A stretch of DNA of 49,844 bases from Flavobacteriales bacterium (GTDB taxonomy: Bacteria; Bacteroidota; Bacteroidia; Flavobacteriales_F; PHOS-HE28), in the NCBI GenBank assembly GCA_017987115.1, contig JAGNUG010000014.1, forward strand, positions 1 through 49,844. The letters are read 5' to 3'. Positions 3,378 to 18,220 of this stretch are shown here, piece by piece. The translations under genes and the position numbers were made by a program. The number at the start of each line of letters is the position of its first letter. The stretch's first letter is position 1. The notes beneath the pieces were generated by a model. That model made no database searches. It was given only the letters and a program-made list of their open reading frames with translations, and was not told where the DNA came from.

Positions 3378-4283
3378 ATGTCCTCAGTTAAAAGGATCTT
3401 CAATTCCATTTATCACGCTATTCCATTAAAACAGGCACTTTTCAGCCCATTAAGGTCTCTTGGAATTGTACCTGAAAGGATATTCAAGCACCTACATTTC
3501 AAAGGTGATTTTACCGTTAGGATCGATCACGAAGCGAGCTTCAGGATCAGACATTATGGCTATGTGATCGAGAATGAACTGTTCTGGAAGGGTGTTGAAG
3601 GTTGGGAACCAATATCCATCAAGATCTGGATGATGTTGAGCAGGTCTTCCAGCGTGGTCTTGGATATTGGAGCGAATACAGGCGTCTTTGCGTTAATAGC
3701 AGATGCCGTATCTCCAAATGCTCTGGTTGTTGCAGTAGAACCAGTTGAACGCATTTTTCGCAAACTGAAAACGAATGTCGAATTGAACAATAATAGGATC
3801 AAGCCTCTCCTGGCAATTGTTACCGACCATACTGGTCAAGCAACCATATACGATCAACCATATCAAGAACATGTGTATTCCGTTTCTGCGGAACGGGATT
3901 GGAACACCTACAATGCCAATCTGATACCGATCGAACTGGATTCGTTCACGGTGACTGACATTCTGAAGAAATTCGGTCAGCGGTCAGTAGATCTGCTGAA
4001 GATCGATGTCGAGACGCACGAACCGGCTGTGCTACGTGGTTTCGCTGATCTCATCCGAAAAGATCGACCCTCAATGCTGCTCGAGGTATTGAACGAGAAA
4101 GTAGCATCTGAGGTGTCAGCGATCATCAGCGGTATCGATTATGTATACTTTACTATTGACGACGTGACCTGGCCACCTCGACAAGTCGCCACATTAGCGA
4201 AGAGCGAGCACTTGAACTTCCTGATATGCACACCTGAAATTGCTCGATCGATCGGATTGATGCATCCGGTCAGGACCAGTTGA
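3378..4283 (+). CDS. FkbM family SAM-dependent methyltransferase
   Basis: FkbM-type enzymes transfer methyl groups from SAM, usually to hydroxyls of sugars or polyketides. The 301-residue protein has the SAM-binding motif VVLDIGANTGVFAL at residues about 93-106, an acidic strand end at VVAVEPVERIF, and the family hallmark VDLLKIDVETHEPAVLRGF. The ATG at 3378 starts the rightward operon. The next frame reaches back over its stop, but the likely start of the glycosyltransferase gene is 47 bases downstream. The probable job is methylation of a sugar of the surface glycan built by the following genes; the acceptor is not predictable. Confidence 0.88.
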   Translation: MSSVKRIFNSIYHAIPLKQALFSPLRSLGIVPERIFKHLHFKGDFTVRIDHEASFRIRHYGYVIENELFWKGVEGWEPISIKIWMMLSRSSSVVLDIGANTGVFALIADAVSPNALVVAVEPVERIFRKLKTNVELNNNRIKPLLAIVTDHTGQATIYDQPYQEHVYSVSAERDWNTYNANLIPIELDSFTVTDILKKFGQRSVDLLKIDVETHEPAVLRGFADLIRKDRPSMLLEVLNEKVASEVSAIISGIDYVYFTIDDVTWPPRQVATLAKSEHLNFLICTPEIARSIGLMHPVRTS

Positions 4284-4330: not shown

Positions 4331-6619
4331 ATGCCTACCCCCAAGAAGAAGCGAACCATTTTCCTCTACTCCCTTGAACCTTGGGGCGATATGTGGTATT
4401 CCAAGCACCACTATGCGGCTTCCTTGGCAAAGAACAATAAAGTATTCTTTGTTAGCCTTCCTGAACGGTGGCAATGGAGCGATCTCTTTTCCTTCAAAGT
4501 GAAGGTACGCAAAGTAAACGAAGGGTTGAGTGTTGTTGAATACAGGAACAACCTCCCCCTGAGATTCTTGCCTAACTGGCTTGCAGACAGGGTGACACGT
4601 TTGAATGCATTGAAGATCAAAAAAATCGTACCTGATGGGGAGGTCATTCATTGGAGCTTTCACCCCACACGGGTGCTGGAGCATGAAACGCTTCGAAATG
4701 CAAATGCCCGAGTGATCTATCACGTGGTAGATCCTTACCAGAGCTTGCGGAACGATAGTTCATTCGCAAAACGATCGGACCTGGTCGTTGCCATCAATCC
4801 ATGGTATCTGAATTATTATCGGAAACTGAATTCGAACTGTTTATTGTTCCCACATGGGGTCCGTGCGGAAGATCGTATACATCAAAAACCTGAGAACAGT
4901 CTTACCGATCAGTGGGGAAAGTATGCGATCCTTGCAACGGGATTGAGCCACTTCGTGAAGTACGAACTTGTAATAAAGTGTGCTAAGCGTTATCCTGATC
5001 TTCGATTCCTGATCTTGGGTCAGCGGTTCCCACTCGAACGGCATCATGAGGAAATGCGTGATCAGCTTTTTGCGTTGCCTAACGTAACCTATCTCGGTGT
5101 AAAGCATCCGAGTGAATTGAAGGAACTCGTGCATGGCGCTGCTGTTGGGTTGCTGACCTACGAGTTGGAACCAACTTCATCAGTTCCGCTGACCGCAGGT
5201 AGAACTCCATTAAAGGTATTGACCTACCTCGCTCAACATTGCCCGGTTGTATCTACCAATAACAGTTACATCATTCCGTTGGAGAATAAGGGGCATTTCA
5301 AAGCGGAAACTGAGGAACACTTCGTGGACCTGATCGGAGAGGTCCTGGACGGTAGCCGAAAATTGGATCGTGTAGCGGTCGACAACTACCTCGACTCGGT
5401 GGATTACAATAAACTCATAGATGGGATCCTTACTGAGTTATCCCATGTGATCGAACGAAGTGAGTCAGAAAAGTCCACAACAACCGTACAACGAAGTTCG
5501 GATAATGAAACAGCTTCATTGGATACCCGCACGCTGGTGCCAAAGCATAGCCCGATCTTGATCGTTTCAAATGAAGGGTGGGATGGTCCACGATACAGCA
5601 AGCACCGCTATGCTATTGCCCTGAATGCACTCCGTATGGTCTATTTCATCGACCCTTCGGACCATTGGAGGCCTTCGCATCTATTAATGCCTAGTGTTAA
5701 GAAACGGGTAACTCCGGAAGGCATAAGTATTCTCTCCTACAAGAATGCAATTCCGCTTCTTGGAGGCACCCTAGGGCCGTTGAACGACTGGATCATTTCC
5801 CGACGGATCCGGAGATATTTGAAACGAGAAGAAGAGCATGATCCTATTTTTTGGTCCTTTGACCCGAGTAGGTTATCGGCACCGGATCATCTTGGTGCCT
5901 ATATATCCATTTATCATTGTGCCGATGACCATGCTTTCAAATGGCGTGGAGAACGGATCCTGGCGAAGGACTGTGATCACGTATTCTGTATTGCCCGTGA
6001 CCTGATGCCCCGTTTCAAAAAATACAATACTTCGGTCCATCACGTTCCTCATGGCCTTGCCGAGAGCGACATTGCGCCAGGTCCGTTCCATGAACATTCG
6101 GAATCTTACGAAAAAGGCTATGGACTATACATCGGCAATATCAATGATCGGCACGACTTCGTTCTGTGGGAGAAATTGATCAAAGCCCATTCCGATGTTA
6201 CATGGATGATCGTTGGGCCAGTGAAAGTCTCTGACCCGATCGGCCTGAAGATCATTAGCGGCAAATACCCGAATGTGATACTGAAACCTTTGGTATCCTA
6301 TTCAAAACTTAAGGATCTGATCGCTAATGCTGCTTTCGGATTCCTATATATGCAACGCGACCACCCCGCGAACCGAATATCCAGCCAGAAGGCGATCCAA
6401 TTCCTTGCACAGGGAAAGCCTTTATTCTGTAGCTGGTTCTCTGAATATGCCGATCATAAAGGCCTAGTGAACATGACCGATGATCATGAGTCTGCGTTGG
6501 CTCAATTCGCGGAGTGGAAAGCAAATGGCGAACCACCTACGGCCAAGGAGCAAAGACTTGAGTTTGCCCGTGCGCAGCGATTCACGAATATTCTCGACAA
6601 CCTACCTTTCAGGTTTTGA
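4331..6619 (+). CDS. Tandem glycosyltransferase: two homologous GT domains in one protein
   Basis: The start chosen is ATG at 4331 (762 residues); the frame extends 17 codons upstream, overlapping the previous stop, without resemblance to the repeat unit. The protein holds two related halves. Half one opens with LEPWGDMWYSKHHYA and VFFVSLPERW; half two, from about residue 408, opens with NEGWDGPRYSKHRYA and VYFIDPSDHW. Both halves contain a WSF segment, a later HG-type motif (FPHGVR; VPHGLA) and a C-terminal GT-B-like region. This matches glycosyltransferases of the GT4/TuaH-like kind, as remembered. A Ser/Thr/Glu-rich linker at about 372-407 joins them. The protein probably adds one or two sugars to a lipid-linked glycan in the cytoplasm. 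Whether both halves are active cannot be told. Confidence 0.8.
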   Translation: MPTPKKKRTIFLYSLEPWGDMWYSKHHYAASLAKNNKVFFVSLPERWQWSDLFSFKVKVRKVNEGLSVVEYRNNLPLRFLPNWLADRVTRLNALKIKKIVPDGEVIHWSFHPTRVLEHETLRNANARVIYHVVDPYQSLRNDSSFAKRSDLVVAINPWYLNYYRKLNSNCLLFPHGVRAEDRIHQKPENSLTDQWGKYAILATGLSHFVKYELVIKCAKRYPDLRFLILGQRFPLERHHEEMRDQLFALPNVTYLGVKHPSELKELVHGAAVGLLTYELEPTSSVPLTAGRTPLKVLTYLAQHCPVVSTNNSYIIPLENKGHFKAETEEHFVDLIGEVLDGSRKLDRVAVDNYLDSVDYNKLIDGILTELSHVIERSESEKSTTTVQRSSDNETASLDTRTLVPKHSPILIVSNEGWDGPRYSKHRYAIALNALRMVYFIDPSDHWRPSHLLMPSVKKRVTPEGISILSYKNAIPLLGGTLGPLNDWIISRRIRRYLKREEEHDPIFWSFDPSRLSAPDHLGAYISIYHCADDHAFKWRGERILAKDCDHVFCIARDLMPRFKKYNTSVHHVPHGLAESDIAPGPFHEHSESYEKGYGLYIGNINDRHDFVLWEKLIKAHSDVTWMIVGPVKVSDPIGLKIISGKYPNVILKPLVSYSKLKDLIANAAFGFLYMQRDHPANRISSQKAIQFLAQGKPLFCSWFSEYADHKGLVNMTDDHESALAQFAEWKANGEPPTAKEQRLEFARAQRFTNILDNLPFRF

Positions 6620-6701
6620 AGCCACTTGCCACAAATTCCGCACTCAGAAGATCGGGGGCTCCCATTTATGAACCGATAACGATCGGCCCATTGGAACGTA
6701 A

Positions 6702-8027
6702 ATGAAACGAGGTATATTCTATACGTTCTTGACACAAGCACCTACCCTGCTTCTTTTCTTTGTTTCCAGCACATTAATGACCCGCATGCTGGGCGATGTG
6801 GGGCGCGGCGAGTATGCCCTTTTGATCAATGACAGTGCATTGCTTGCCATGCTACTAAGCTTGAATCTGGCGTTCGGTGTAGGTTATTTTACTGCAAAGA
6901 ATCCGGGAGATATTCGCTCTTTGGTGGGGGTTGCAACATCCTTGGTGTTGTTCAACGGGATCCTGGTACCGATCTTACTTTTCGGAGCTTCCGGGATCGA
7001 GGCCCTCAGCGAGCTTTTCATGCCTAACGGTCGTACTCATTGGGCGTACTACGGATTCCTGTACCTCACAGTGATATCCAGCTTGATCAATGGCGCCATG
7101 GCTGCCGTACTCCTTGGTCTGAAAAAATTCAAGGTACTGAATGGCATGAGCATTCTCAATGCTTCTTCGAACATGATCGGGTTCTCCGCCCTATACTTGT
7201 TCAGAGAACATTTGGGTCCTGACGATGTGCTCCCAATGGTGCTGATCGTCGTTTCTTCTACAATGGTGATCCAGAGCATTGTCTGGTGTATTGCTTACGG
7301 GCTGATCGTGAAGATCTTGCCCAAGCCCATCTGGACCTGGTCCATTATAGGACCTGTACTCTCGTTCTCAATGGTAGGGCATTCCAGCAATTTGGTCAAC
7401 TTGATCAACTATCGTTTCGATGTTTGGGTGGTGGATCACTATTGGGGAGCTTCTCAACTGGGTCTGTATGCTGTTGCCGTCGGGATCGGACAACTGCTTT
7501 TTTACATACCCGAACCTTTTACGCGGGTAGTGCAACCCTATTTGTTCGGGCAGGTAAAAGATGAAATGCTTGAGCGATACAAAGTAGTAGCTCGGCTTAA
7601 TTTCACTTCAGTGCTGGTCATAGCGATAACGCTTGCCTTGATCGCCCAATGGCTGATCCCCTTCCTTTTCGGGGAGGTGTTCTCCAGCAGTGTACTGGCC
7701 TTGTGGTTGCTTCTCCCAGGGATAGTTTTCAGTAGTGGGTTCAAGCTTTTAGCTTCGTTGGTGATCAATGCGAACATGCAGCGCTATAATCTGTTAGCCA
7801 CTGGTGTGGGGGCCATTTTCACGATCGTACTTGGTCTTTTAGTGATTCCCATCCATGGTATTGCAGGAGCTGCAATTGTGACCTCGATCTCCTATTTCAT
7901 GACTTTGATGGTGGTAGTCCTTGTCATACGATTCCGTCTGAATATCGCCGTATACGATCTGTTCCTTCTCCGTTTTTCCGACTTCGCTTATTTCAGGGAT
8001 CTTAGTGCATGGAAAAGAACAACATAG
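6702..8027 (+). CDS. Polysaccharide flippase (Wzx/MATE-like, MOP superfamily)
   Basis: A 441-residue polytopic membrane protein with about 12-14 hydrophobic segments spread over its length. The N-terminus reads QAPTLLLFFVSSTLMTRML followed by GRGEYAL, typical of oligosaccharide flippases (the G.YAL segment after the first helix). Such proteins move undecaprenyl-linked oligosaccharide across the inner membrane. Its place directly after a glycosyltransferase and before further glycosyltransferases supports that role. Its 3' end overlaps the next gene by 19 bases, so the two are probably translated in a coupled way. A second flippase lies at 28970-30454. Confidence 0.85.
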   Translation: MKRGIFYTFLTQAPTLLLFFVSSTLMTRMLGDVGRGEYALLINDSALLAMLLSLNLAFGVGYFTAKNPGDIRSLVGVATSLVLFNGILVPILLFGASGIEALSELFMPNGRTHWAYYGFLYLTVISSLINGAMAAVLLGLKKFKVLNGMSILNASSNMIGFSALYLFREHLGPDDVLPMVLIVVSSTMVIQSIVWCIAYGLIVKILPKPIWTWSIIGPVLSFSMVGHSSNLVNLINYRFDVWVVDHYWGASQLGLYAVAVGIGQLLFYIPEPFTRVVQPYLFGQVKDEMLERYKVVARLNFTSVLVIAITLALIAQWLIPFLFGEVFSSSVLALWLLLPGIVFSSGFKLLASLVINANMQRYNLLATGVGAIFTIVLGLLVIPIHGIAGAAIVTSISYFMTLMVVVLVIRFRLNIAVYDLFLLRFSDFAYFRDLSAWKRTT

Positions 8028-9975: not shown

Positions 9976-11106
9976 ATGCACGTCCTGCACACATTCGCCA
10001 ATAATGATCATGTCCCGTATTTGACATGGTTCACCGACCGTGCAGTTCTGGAACGTGACCCGACCTATACATTCTTGATCATGTATCCGGAACGGCCTAG
10101 GATCATGGACGAGATGATGGCGAAAGGGTTCAACTGCGAATGGATCCGTTATCGGGATTCGCATCGCAAACTGGATATGCTGATGGCACTGCCACGGCTA
10201 TGGCGATACATCCGAAAATATCGCCCGGACATCGTGCATTGCAACTTATTCGACGACTCTGTTCCAGGGCTCATTGCGGCAAAGCTCGCTGGTGTAAAAG
10301 TCCGCGTGATCACGAAGCAGGACACGGGCTATCACTACTTACATGCACCTCGTTGGATGGCTGTGGACCGGTTCAATTCTCGAATGGCCACGCACGTGAT
10401 CGCTATTTCAAACGAAAGTAAACGGTTCCTGATCGAACAGGAAGGAACTCCCGAACACAAGATCACACTGGTACACAACGGCATTCCTTCTGATCAGTTC
10501 ACTAAGAAGGATCCGGTTGTGATGGATCGTTTAAAGCAACGTTTCGGCACCGTGAACAAGGGTCCCATCATTGGAACCGTTGCCCGTTTCATTGAATGGA
10601 AAGGATACAAATTGATCGTGGCTGCAGCCGGTGAGATCGTGAAAGAACATAAAGATGCGCTCTTCCTGTTGTGCGGCAGTGGAGCGGAAGAACCCGAGAT
10701 CCGCGCTATGATCGAAGAGGCTGGACTGAAGAACAATGTGGTACTTACAGGTTGGATCGATCGCACGGATATGGCATCGTTCTATGGCCTTTTGGATATT
10801 TATCTACATGCCGCTGTTCTGGAACCGTTCGGCTTGGTCTATCCAGAGGCCATGATGAATGCAGTGCCTGTTGTAAGCACATCCACCGGGGCTGCTGCGG
10901 ACGCAATAAAGGATGGAGAAAATGGCATTCTGGTTTCCGAAAGAACACCCAAGGCTTTGGCCGATGGAGTTGAACGACTATTAAGGTCCGACCATGGATC
11001 CATTGGAATTGCCGGGAAGAAAACAGCATTGGAGATGTATTCATTCGATGTAATGTGGCAAGGAACCGTGGACCTTTATCGCAACGCCCTGAACTCCATT
11101 GAATGA
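9976..11106 (+). CDS. Glycosyltransferase family 4 protein
   Basis: A 376-residue GT-B glycosyltransferase. The N-terminal half has VHCNLFDDSVPGLIAAKLAG and a family-like VHNGIP before the hinge. The C-terminal half has GTVARFIEWKGYKLI and the E-x7-E segment EPFGLVYPEAMMNAVPVV that holds the nucleotide sugar in GT4 enzymes. Its stop overlaps the next gene's ATG in an ATGA junction, indicating translational coupling. It is one of three consecutive sugar transferases in this arm, so it likely forms one linkage of the surface glycan. Confidence 0.9.
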   Translation: MHVLHTFANNDHVPYLTWFTDRAVLERDPTYTFLIMYPERPRIMDEMMAKGFNCEWIRYRDSHRKLDMLMALPRLWRYIRKYRPDIVHCNLFDDSVPGLIAAKLAGVKVRVITKQDTGYHYLHAPRWMAVDRFNSRMATHVIAISNESKRFLIEQEGTPEHKITLVHNGIPSDQFTKKDPVVMDRLKQRFGTVNKGPIIGTVARFIEWKGYKLIVAAAGEIVKEHKDALFLLCGSGAEEPEIRAMIEEAGLKNNVVLTGWIDRTDMASFYGLLDIYLHAAVLEPFGLVYPEAMMNAVPVVSTSTGAAADAIKDGENGILVSERTPKALADGVERLLRSDHGSIGIAGKKTALEMYSFDVMWQGTVDLYRNALNSIE

Positions 11107-15078: not shown

Positions 15079-16581
15079 TCATAGCGCAGGTTTTAATGAA
15101 GAACCGGGTTTAGCATAGGTGGTCTTGTGTCGTTTGCCTTGTATACCCGCGTATTCATCAAGGTGGGAGGATCCGCGTCTGAATTGCCGAATATCAAAAT
15201 GAAGTCCTTGATTTTCCCGGACACGCTTCAATTGGCTCAAATACTTAATGAGATACAATGCACTTATGTATAACGGGATCAACGGGATCTTGAACCGCAC
15301 GAGCGCACCAAAATTCGGTGTAGTAACACCAACAACGAATCCGAATAACAATGCGAACGACATGGACATCAATATCAACGGATTGCCGATCATTGCGCGG
15401 AGCAAGAAGCCCGGACCTACTTGCCAAATGACCAAGAGCGTAAGCCAAAGGACCCATAGGTTCTCCAAACCACTCATGGCCACTACTATGCTCGAGGACT
15501 CCCAAATGTAAGGCCGGAACAAAGCTGCGTTCGTCGCAACCGGGAATTTCGAGAATACTCCAGCCCATGTACCATCCAATTCGCCGATGTTGAACGAATT
15601 GGTTCCATACCAATCTGCTTTGGAAAGGTCATTCTGTGTAACCTCGATGGTCTTCAATGCCTCGTCCAATGCGAATTTATCAAGGCTATCCCCTAAGCTA
15701 TCCAATATTGATAAGCAAACGGCAATTGATCCGATCATCACTATTGGCACGACCACGAACTTGACGAGAATGTTCTTGATCTGCACGACCCGGAAGTATA
15801 GTAACCAAAGAACCATCACAGGGAACAAGGTCATGAAAATGTATGGTTTGATAAGCACCATGATCAACGCGCTCAGAATTAGAATGACCACTCTGGACGA
15901 TATGTTCCTCTTTTTGAAGAATATCTCATCAACGGAGTGAATGAACCAGCATACAGCGCTGATCGTGAAGGTGTCCTTAAGGATCGCGGACCCCCAAAAA
16001 ATAACCGAAGGCATGAAAAGGAACGCAATGGCAAGCTTTCCGGTCTGCTGTGGAAAATAACTGACGAAGGTCCGGAAACATGCCCAGATCCCAAAGAACG
16101 AAACACTGGCAATGAGCAATGATGCGTTCAGATAACTATTGAATGAAAGAATAGCCAATATGCTGGCGATCCGTATCACGAAATACGTTCTATCATCAAA
16201 ATACAAATATTGAAATGGCTTACCTGTTTCCCATGTAAATACGTTCCAATTCTCCAACGTATTATCACCGAACAATTGATTCAAATACGCCAACGGATCC
16301 AACATCGCCAAATTCCGCATGGATACAGCCCCGTAAAAATAAGCCACTGAATCTCCCCCCGGGTAATAATAGAAATAGATCAATGCGAAAACGACACCGG
16401 CAAAAAGTTTTGCCATCAGACCCCATAGAAGGTATTTGTACTCCGGAGCGGTTCTGATCCGAACATTCTTTATACGAGCGAAATAAATATAAAGCACCAG
16501 GATGTATGCTATTGCAACCGTCCACTCCCAGTATGCGATCTCCGCCTCACCGAAATAGTATGTGCTGAAAAGAGTGATCAT
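15079..16581 (-). CDS. Polytopic membrane protein, candidate O-antigen/capsule polymerase (Wzy-like)
   Basis: About 500 residues with roughly 10-12 hydrophobic segments and two longer polar loops (residues about 80-140 and 270-340), the general layout of Wzy or EpsG-type polymerases. A recognisable family signature is absent, so the call rests on topology and on its place among glycosyltransferases with a flippase in the same locus. ATG at 16581 is preferred; an in-frame GTG ten codons upstream (16611) is possible. The segment MPSVIFWGSAILKDTFTIS contains a lone lysine/aspartate pair inside the membrane, as can occur in such enzymes. It could instead be another GT-C type transferase. Confidence 0.6.
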   Translation of the reverse strand: MITLFSTYYFGEAEIAYWEWTVAIAYILVLYIYFARIKNVRIRTAPEYKYLLWGLMAKLFAGVVFALIYFYYYPGGDSVAYFYGAVSMRNLAMLDPLAYLNQLFGDNTLENWNVFTWETGKPFQYLYFDDRTYFVIRIASILAILSFNSYLNASLLIASVSFFGIWACFRTFVSYFPQQTGKLAIAFLFMPSVIFWGSAILKDTFTISAVCWFIHSVDEIFFKKRNISSRVVILILSALIMVLIKPYIFMTLFPVMVLWLLYFRVVQIKNILVKFVVVPIVMIGSIAVCLSILDSLGDSLDKFALDEALKTIEVTQNDLSKADWYGTNSFNIGELDGTWAGVFSKFPVATNAALFRPYIWESSSIVVAMSGLENLWVLWLTLLVIWQVGPGFLLRAMIGNPLILMSMSFALLFGFVVGVTTPNFGALVRFKIPLIPLYISALYLIKYLSQLKRVRENQGLHFDIRQFRRGSSHLDEYAGIQGKRHKTTYAKPGSSLKPAL

Positions 16582-16665
16582 TTCATTGACCTGAACGAAT
16601 TCGCCTATCACGGCTCCTCAACCCCGGATCATCCATCTCATACTTGACCAATGGTTTCCGACCGA

Positions 16666-18090
16666 TCATTGCGCCGGAGTTCGAATTTCATCTTTTTTGT
16701 ACCACAACGATGCAATGGCAAGTGCAACGAAAGCCATCATCGTAAATCGAACACAAATGGTATATCTGCTCTGGATCGTAAATGGTATATGAATGAACCA
16801 TGCATAACCCACAACAATTGCAAGAGGCCAAATACGCGCAATATTCAACCGTTTTAACCAGAGCGCCATTGGAACAAGAACGATGAACAGAAGAAAAATA
16901 ATGCCCGTAGTCACAGTTGCATAGAGACTCTTGATCTTACCTGCCATGGACGCTTCTCGGAAATCCGTAACCTGAATCCCGATCACCCATAGCCTGACGG
17001 CTGAGTATACCTTGTATTTGATCGTGTACCAAGGATCATCCAGCATATGCTCGATCGCCTTGTCCATCAACAATTTCTCACGTGTTCTAGTGTACTCAGA
17101 ATTGAACGTATTCTCAACGCTGTACGTAACCAACGGACGGGATGCAAGCATGATGGTATCAACCTCGGTCTTCAGTGGATCCACGATCGCGAGGATATCC
17201 GCCCATTCCGATTCGAATTCCTGGATGTTAGCAGGGACCGTTGATGGGGGAACAAAATCAAAGACTTCATCGCCCGTAAAATTTCGGAGCGATATGTGAT
17301 CGGTGTAATTGGGCATTTTTCCACACCAGAAACCAAAATGCATATACCCTCCACCACCCTGCAATGGCGTTACTTGGAATACGCCATGGTGTTTCAGGTT
17401 CCAGAAACCAAAGGGCAACAAGGAAAGCACGAAAATGCCGAATGATAGCGCATGCGGGCGGATCTGGAATTGTTTTCGTTCCACGAACCACATCACGGAA
17501 TAAAAGGCCAACGGTAAAAGAAGAAAGACCGGTTTCAATTGGAACAGAAATGCAAAAAGAAGTCCTTGCACCAAAGCGAGATACCAAGGCAACGGTCCAG
17601 ATCTGGTGGCAATAAAGACAACAGCACAGATCCCGAACAGCGTTGGTATGTCCGTGTATGCTTGCATTATGTAGTACGGTATATTGATGGATGGGATCAA
17701 TAAGATCAAGAATATGTTCTGTGCCATCAAGCGGGCATCGAACCGTTCGATCACCTTCAGCGATAGTAATATTCCCGCGAAGTACATCACGAGGTTAAAC
17801 ACCTTAACTACCTTGTAATTACCGAATACTTTGATCACTGTAGCCAATACCATTGGGTATCCCGGTGCTCTAAATGTGTCCGGGATCTCAGTTGGCAGCT
17901 CCCACCACAAACTATATTCTCCATGCAGTAAACTTTCGGCAAGTGCTAAATAGGACCACGTATCGCTTAACACCACGTTACGCGTAGCCCACATCATGAT
18001 CATGACCTGAAGCAAGTTCAACACTAGCAATACCTTGAACGTTGTCCGAGCGTTCAGACACCTGGTCAATATCCCTTGCTTTTCCATCAT
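16666..18090 (-). CDS. GT39-like (GT-C) membrane glycosyltransferase
   Basis: A 474-residue membrane protein with about 10-11 transmembrane segments. After the first helix a periplasmic loop reads LSDTWSYLALAESLLHG and then FRAPGYPMVLA. An acidic residue near the end of helix 1 plus an RxPGYP segment is the pattern of the GT39/ArnT/PMT-like group, which uses polyprenyl-phosphate sugars on the periplasmic side. ATG at 18090 is followed directly by a second ATG at 18087. It precedes the Wzy-like gene by 84 bases. It could decorate the glycan with a side sugar after export. The acceptor is not predictable. Confidence 0.78.
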   Translation of the reverse strand: MMEKQGILTRCLNARTTFKVLLVLNLLQVMIMMWATRNVVLSDTWSYLALAESLLHGEYSLWWELPTEIPDTFRAPGYPMVLATVIKVFGNYKVVKVFNLVMYFAGILLSLKVIERFDARLMAQNIFLILLIPSINIPYYIMQAYTDIPTLFGICAVVFIATRSGPLPWYLALVQGLLFAFLFQLKPVFLLLPLAFYSVMWFVERKQFQIRPHALSFGIFVLSLLPFGFWNLKHHGVFQVTPLQGGGGYMHFGFWCGKMPNYTDHISLRNFTGDEVFDFVPPSTVPANIQEFESEWADILAIVDPLKTEVDTIMLASRPLVTYSVENTFNSEYTRTREKLLMDKAIEHMLDDPWYTIKYKVYSAVRLWVIGIQVTDFREASMAGKIKSLYATVTTGIIFLLFIVLVPMALWLKRLNIARIWPLAIVVGYAWFIHIPFTIQSRYTICVRFTMMAFVALAIASLWYKKDEIRTPAQ

Positions 18091-18220
18091 TCCCTTTAAT
18101 GCTCAATTCAACAAAAGAAACCAAAAAACAATGCGTCACAGAGAAAGCCTGTCTCGAGTGAATGATGTTGTGGTATGCCAACGATCCAGATTGTCCTCCC
18201 ACGCAACTAAGTACGATCGC

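Follow-up and report, generated by a model that had tools for sequence, protein, structure and literature searches.

This locus raises the question of whether a chain carrying two glycosyltransferases is a real protein, whether its halves descend from one gene or from two, and whether both of them work. The window analysed here (the whole stretch of 49,844 nucleotides of contig JAGNUG010000014.1, from a Flavobacteriales bacterium) holds the gene as a single open frame of 763 codons including the stop, with domains A and B on either side of a linker (Table 1). The halves are 27% identical over 310 aligned columns (BLASTP E 2e-22), and their Smith-Waterman score of 218 stands 35 SD above 1000 shuffles (mean 36.5, maximum 66). 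The two repeated openings quoted in the initial annotation are both present (S14/W18 and S413/W417, spaced by 399 residues), and the open frame, the alignment and the shuffles together confirm its reading of two homologous but diverged glycosyltransferases within one real protein. Its description of a Ser/Thr/Glu-rich linker holds for the window protein (approximately residues 374-405) and does not carry over as such to the relatives, among which length and composition both vary.

Table 1. Coordinates of the fused gene, its parts and its neighbours in the window
Feature	Coordinates	Strand	Remarks
Fused glycosyltransferase gene, 762 aa plus stop	4331..6619	+	Open frame, ATG at 4331 to stop ending at 6619; A-B fusion also in 10/45 genus genomes
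Domain A, ~residues 7-373, GT-B fold, TuaH-like	4349..5449	+	
Linker, variable, Ser/Thr/Glu-rich	5450..5533	+	Low model confidence at residues 382-397
Domain B, ~residues 402-762, GT-B fold, TuaH-like	5534..6616	+	
Asp134 of A, invariant; candidate catalytic or acceptor-site residue	4730..4732	+	61-domain alignment
Asp532 of B, counterpart of Asp134	5924..5926	+	
Lys295 (invariant) to Thr298 of A	5213..5224	+	Outgroup has Glu at the Thr298 position
Lys687 (invariant) to Gln690 of B	6389..6400	+	
FkbM-type methyltransferase, just upstream of the fused gene	3378..4283	+	
Wzx-like flippase (Polysacc_synt), just downstream of the fused gene	6702..8027	+	
GTc, GT4	9976..11106	+	Single-domain B relatives adjoin it (5' side) in other genomes

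The AlphaFold model of the whole protein contains two GT-B domains (mean pLDDT 84, pTM 0.51), and B modelled alone is likewise GT-B (mean pLDDT 89, pTM 0.87); at a pTM of 0.51 the mutual placement of A and B is not confidently predicted. Structural matches to A include the sucrose-phosphate synthase-like 6kih (Z 28.1, rmsd 3.6, 346 residues aligned), MshA (Z 27.4, rmsd 3.5, 332 aligned) and GumK (2hy7; Z 27.2, rmsd 3.9, 331 aligned, 16% identity), with GumK entries showing the top sequence identities in the match list (15-17%). Matches to B are of the same kinds at Z 25-26, GumK 2q6v among them (Z 25.0, rmsd 4.0, 324 aligned). By Z these best matches are ties, GumK and the GT4 enzymes included.

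Family profiles place the two halves near TuaH. In Pfam the donor part of A is a group-1 glycosyltransferase and B is matched weakly; against PF13692 (cut-off 27) the whole protein scores 28.8 bits, driven by A, with 25.7 for A alone and no match for B alone. Among curated NCBIfam families, TuaH of teichuronic acid biosynthesis alone is matched by both halves (NF047676; E 8.5e-12 for the whole protein, about 1e-5 for each half), but the 44.6 bits of the fused protein lie far below the cut-off of 550. TuaH itself has one domain and belongs to Gram-positive bacteria. The Pfam GumK_N model (PF22059) finds none of 13 A or 10 B members at E values up to 10, and membership of A and B in GT70 is thus not supported by Pfam. 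The same model matches none of 20 relatives and nothing in 296 Bacteroidota genomes, a blank that says nothing on absence because 14 controls are likewise unmatched. PDB sequence searches returned nothing or chance matches, whether the query was P0001, profile A1 or A2, or a single outgroup protein.

If an assembly or sequencing error had joined two genes, related genomes should show a stop and a start within the linker. These were looked for, and all complete A-B relatives read through. A search of 45 genomes of the window's genus with an A profile and a B profile (most of loci L031 to L040 belong to genomes that also bear a G handle and are counted once) found the A-B fusion in ten (G000, G001, G003, G011, G016, G030, G059, G061, G063 and G067), with the G003 copy cut at its 5' end by the contig and the G030 copy split over two contig ends. 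The fusion thus recurs, with a stop-free linker, in many separate assemblies at approximately 50-62% identity. Although all named relatives are metagenome-assembled genomes, which leaves some room for error, the recurrence of a stop-free fusion in so many separate assemblies at this divergence reduces the chance of an artefact to a negligible one; with ten of 45 genus genomes carrying A-B and no complete fused copy having a linker stop, an artefact in the window is excluded and A-B is almost certainly a real fusion.

Other arrangements of the same domains occur in the genus. Two of the 45 genomes have the reverse order, in which a B-type domain (B') precedes A (G027 and G064, the latter with two B'-A copies, one of them cut by a contig end), three have A alone (G012, G022, G065) and seven have a B-type gene alone (G002, G004, G006, G017, G031, G032, G034), while in the remaining 23 neither profile matched above 200 bits. 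The single B-type gene of G006 (L177, 5726-6850, minus strand) is broken by one TAA and is possibly a decaying copy. At L165 (G210, 5593-7754) and L179 (G032, 5568-7833), both on the plus strand, two B-type genes stand in tandem directly before GTc; they are separate paralogues and occupy the slot that the fusion fills elsewhere.

In a sample of 395 genomes drawn from the class, the A profile matches 89 and the B profile 79 at E ≤0.001, many of these matches being generic transferases. Above 200 bits, A is found outside the genus in 10 genomes, nine times in frames of single-domain size and once in a 744-aa frame (G076); the A-B form was not found outside the genus in this sample. The G076 frame (L148, 4484-6715, minus strand), from a different family of the class, consists of an A-type domain followed by a canonical GT4 that is 43% identical to the window GTc. 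At L147 (G391) three distinct genes, B, A and GTc, adjoin one another, which is how a locus before fusion would look. A long frame upstream of A at L041, where the contig ends inside A, was considered as a third partner and rejected, its first 350 residues matching neither A nor B. The 706-aa frame of L028 is odd in that a low-complexity stretch precedes its transferase part.

The history of the halves was read from a tree of 60 domains, which omits L173, both L177 pieces, matches below 40 bits and domains shorter than 250 residues (which removes the partial A from L172 and from L175). Domains of type A, whether fused or free-standing, group together at 100/99, with fused A clustering among single-domain A proteins from several other families. 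The ten fused B domains form a separate clade (100/100), and B' of the reverse fusions groups with the free-standing B proteins found in the genus (100/100). Single-domain relatives of A and of B occur across Bacteroidia. Groups for the tree tests were defined by architecture, except for the one combining genus A with fused B, which was named only once the tree had been seen; forcing this group into one clade costs 83 log-likelihood units (AU p 0.0005). The rejection of this clade indicates that two separate old paralogues existed first and were then joined, in place of the earlier proposal of a single gene whose two copies remained joined after duplication. Clear homology between the halves is what a tandem duplication in place would require, but with each half having single-domain relatives of its own and with that AU value under the model used, we regard such an origin as very improbable.

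Distances among A domains follow those among B domains across nine fused proteins (r 0.86, with one of 5000 permutations as high), as expected if both halves travelled together. This correlation and the presence of the fusion in ten of the 45 genomes make it old relative to the genus. Neither a single clade of B plus B' (AU p 0.076) nor a single clade of A from both fusion orders (AU p 0.125) is rejected at 0.05, and A-B and B'-A may stem from independent fusions or from one. The fused A of the A-B order is itself not one clade (AU p 0.0116), since single A domains and those of the reverse order are interspersed with it; on one reading, loss or exchange of B could account for their position.

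The genes around the fusion make up a conserved glycan-building locus. The flippase is followed by a methyltransferase, two GT4 genes and a GT2. The opposite strand carries GalE, a GT4, another methyltransferase and two large frames that match no Pfam family (15082-16611, 510 aa, and 16669-18102, 478 aa, both on the minus strand). Homologues of both frames occur in relatives. An NCBIfam scan of the first also gave no match; at a guess, this frame could be a Wzy-like polymerase. With genes called by a greedy ORF rule and GTc taken as the best window match, a GTc orthologue is immediately next to the single B-type gene in 12 of 12 loci of other Bacteroidia (36-57% identity). For single A genes it is immediately next in six of 12 loci (28-62% identity), second in one more and third in another. 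GTc is not directly adjacent to the fused gene in the window; among A-B loci it stands third or fourth downstream in five of ten, lies beyond the contig end in L167, L171 and L186, and is missing from L170 and L172. A search downstream in L162 likewise found no GTc. Bacteroidota protein O-glycosylation loci are described as having metG and a flippase at their start and numerous transferases (PMC12871550). Among the window frames scanned (first 20 kb) no metG was found, and the cluster is accordingly not assigned to that system.

Residue conservation was examined in 61 domains (24 A, 28 B and 9 outgroup), with L159, L160 and L181, labelled B, moved to the outgroup as the tree dictates and one Azospirillum row added. 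The Ser-Glu-Trp...Ser-Lys opening and the His at 175/574 are nearly invariant across the alignment, while Asp134/532 and Lys295/687 are kept in all 24 A, all 28 B and all 9 outgroup rows. Loss of family-wide residues from one half is thereby rejected. The differences between the halves lie elsewhere. Arg607 of B is conserved in 28/28 B rows and has an Arg counterpart in 6/24 A rows, the window A having Phe208. The second Glu of the EX7E motif, found in 9/9 outgroup rows, is absent from all A and B rows: the position is Gln in 26/28 B rows (Gln690 in the window) and Thr, Asn, Ser, His or Asp in 24/24 A rows (Thr298 in the window). In a model of the GT4 enzyme GumH this Glu contacts the donor ribose, according to the available portion of that report (PMC13104830). 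With Arg607 and Gln690 in B set against Phe208 and Thr298 in A, the donor sites differ at two positions, which suggests that the donors of A and B differ as well.

Three informative pairs give dN/dS values of 0.066, 0.109 and 0.121 for A and 0.060, 0.088 and 0.080 for B (a fourth pair, the window with L031, was saturated). These values indicate that both halves are under strong purifying selection, and nothing points to decay of either one. Retention of Asp and Lys in both halves, together with ratios of ~0.06-0.12 for both, does not favour the initial annotation's suggestion that one half may be a regulator. A related possibility is that A is a pseudo-enzyme that binds the acceptor or holds the complex while B alone is catalytic, as its replaced Glu/Gln position in every row and its Arg in six of 24 rows might lead one to propose. 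A nevertheless keeps the invariant Asp and Lys in all its rows, is constrained to the same degree as B and exists as a single-domain gene in 12 tree rows, and we therefore hold a non-catalytic A to be quite unlikely.

On balance, the fused protein is probably a two-step transferase of a Wzx-type polysaccharide cluster that adds two consecutive sugars to a glycan of the cell surface. Two long-diverged TuaH-like GT-B enzymes, formerly encoded by adjacent genes of a conserved polysaccharide operon, would have merged into one chain, giving a two-domain glycosyltransferase working at the cytoplasmic face. A and B would each transfer their own sugar, in succession, onto the same lipid-linked oligosaccharide, with the intermediate passed on locally and the glycan then flipped by the neighbouring Wzx-like protein. 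The flippase, methyltransferases and further glycosyltransferases of the cluster agree with this scheme, and the repeated joining of A to its neighbours (A-B, B'-A, A-GTc in L148, and the separate B, A and GTc of L147) is what would be expected of consecutive pathway steps. The two successive linkages proposed earlier are thus plausible, and activity of both halves on consecutive sugars is most likely. Within the genus, however, single A genes and single B genes are for the most part found in separate genomes, and A and B could for that reason be alternatives for one step rather than two.

The tandem bifunctional O-antigen glycosyltransferases offer a close comparison for a two-step chain. In the accessible text on WbdA and others of its kind, each chain has two modules, one per linkage (PMC11231755), and the fused protein resembles them in carrying two complete glycosyltransferase domains. 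By analogy with the polymerase WbdA, both halves might use the same kind of donor and build a repeating polymer with two linkages. The one-domain-per-linkage design of such enzymes lends this some weight, but the flippase of the cluster is Wzx-like, no genes for ABC export were seen in the frames scanned (first 20 kb), and A and B have different residues at two donor-site positions, with Arg fixed in B; we consider a polymerase unlikely. The fused protein also departs from the WbdA kind in family and export system, and its partners occur singly and in swapped order.

GumK offers a second comparison, at the donor site. In GumK, Gln310 lies three residues past Lys307. A and B also have an invariant Asp and an invariant Lys, which may correspond to its catalytic Asp157 and Lys307, and a Lys-centred site in A and B would resemble that of GumK; Z scores for GumK are tied with those for GT4 enzymes, and A and B lack a GumK_N match. 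The xanthan glucuronosyltransferase GumK (GT70) relies on donor-site Lys307 and does without the GT4 Arg-Lys pair, as far as the available section of the source goes (PMC12768416).

There is a bolder reading, possible but doubtful, in which A would be a mobile assembly-line module joined to pathway neighbours in at least three ways (A-B, B'-A and A-GTc) regardless of order, its partners recording adjacent transferases, and in which the A/B subfamily would be a TuaH-like branch that gave up the ribose-binding Glu and uses a GumK-like, Lys-centred donor site.

Fusion of a related domain to another sugar-assembly enzyme is seen in Alphaproteobacteria, where a TuaH-like transferase approximately 24-29% identical to B is joined to UDP-galactopyranose mutase, the partner there being a mutase and not a second transferase. 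No UDP-galactopyranose mutase was found in the window's genome. On Azospirillum and Pararhizobium plasmids (L187, 2159-4666, and L188, 2570-4804) the N-terminal TuaH-like glycosyltransferase domain lies in genes annotated solely as UDP-galactopyranose mutase, an annotation that conceals the transferase. Literature searches for tandem or order-swapped transferases turned up none that was recognised as belonging to the A/B family, although a published example may exist.

Taken by itself, the window yields a modest and mostly expected result. The kind is already known, since WbdA-like tandem enzymes work in this way, and the fused protein adds a case from the TuaH-like family. Less usual is the range of contexts of A, which is followed by one partner, preceded by a relative of that partner in the reverse order, and elsewhere followed by a third enzyme. 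The specificity of glycosyltransferases is hard to infer from sequence, and a module fused to differing neighbours across genomes helps to identify consecutive steps. Comparing the halves of a natural two-enzyme chain on their own, joined and in exchanged order would show whether fusion speeds the hand-over of a lipid-linked intermediate.
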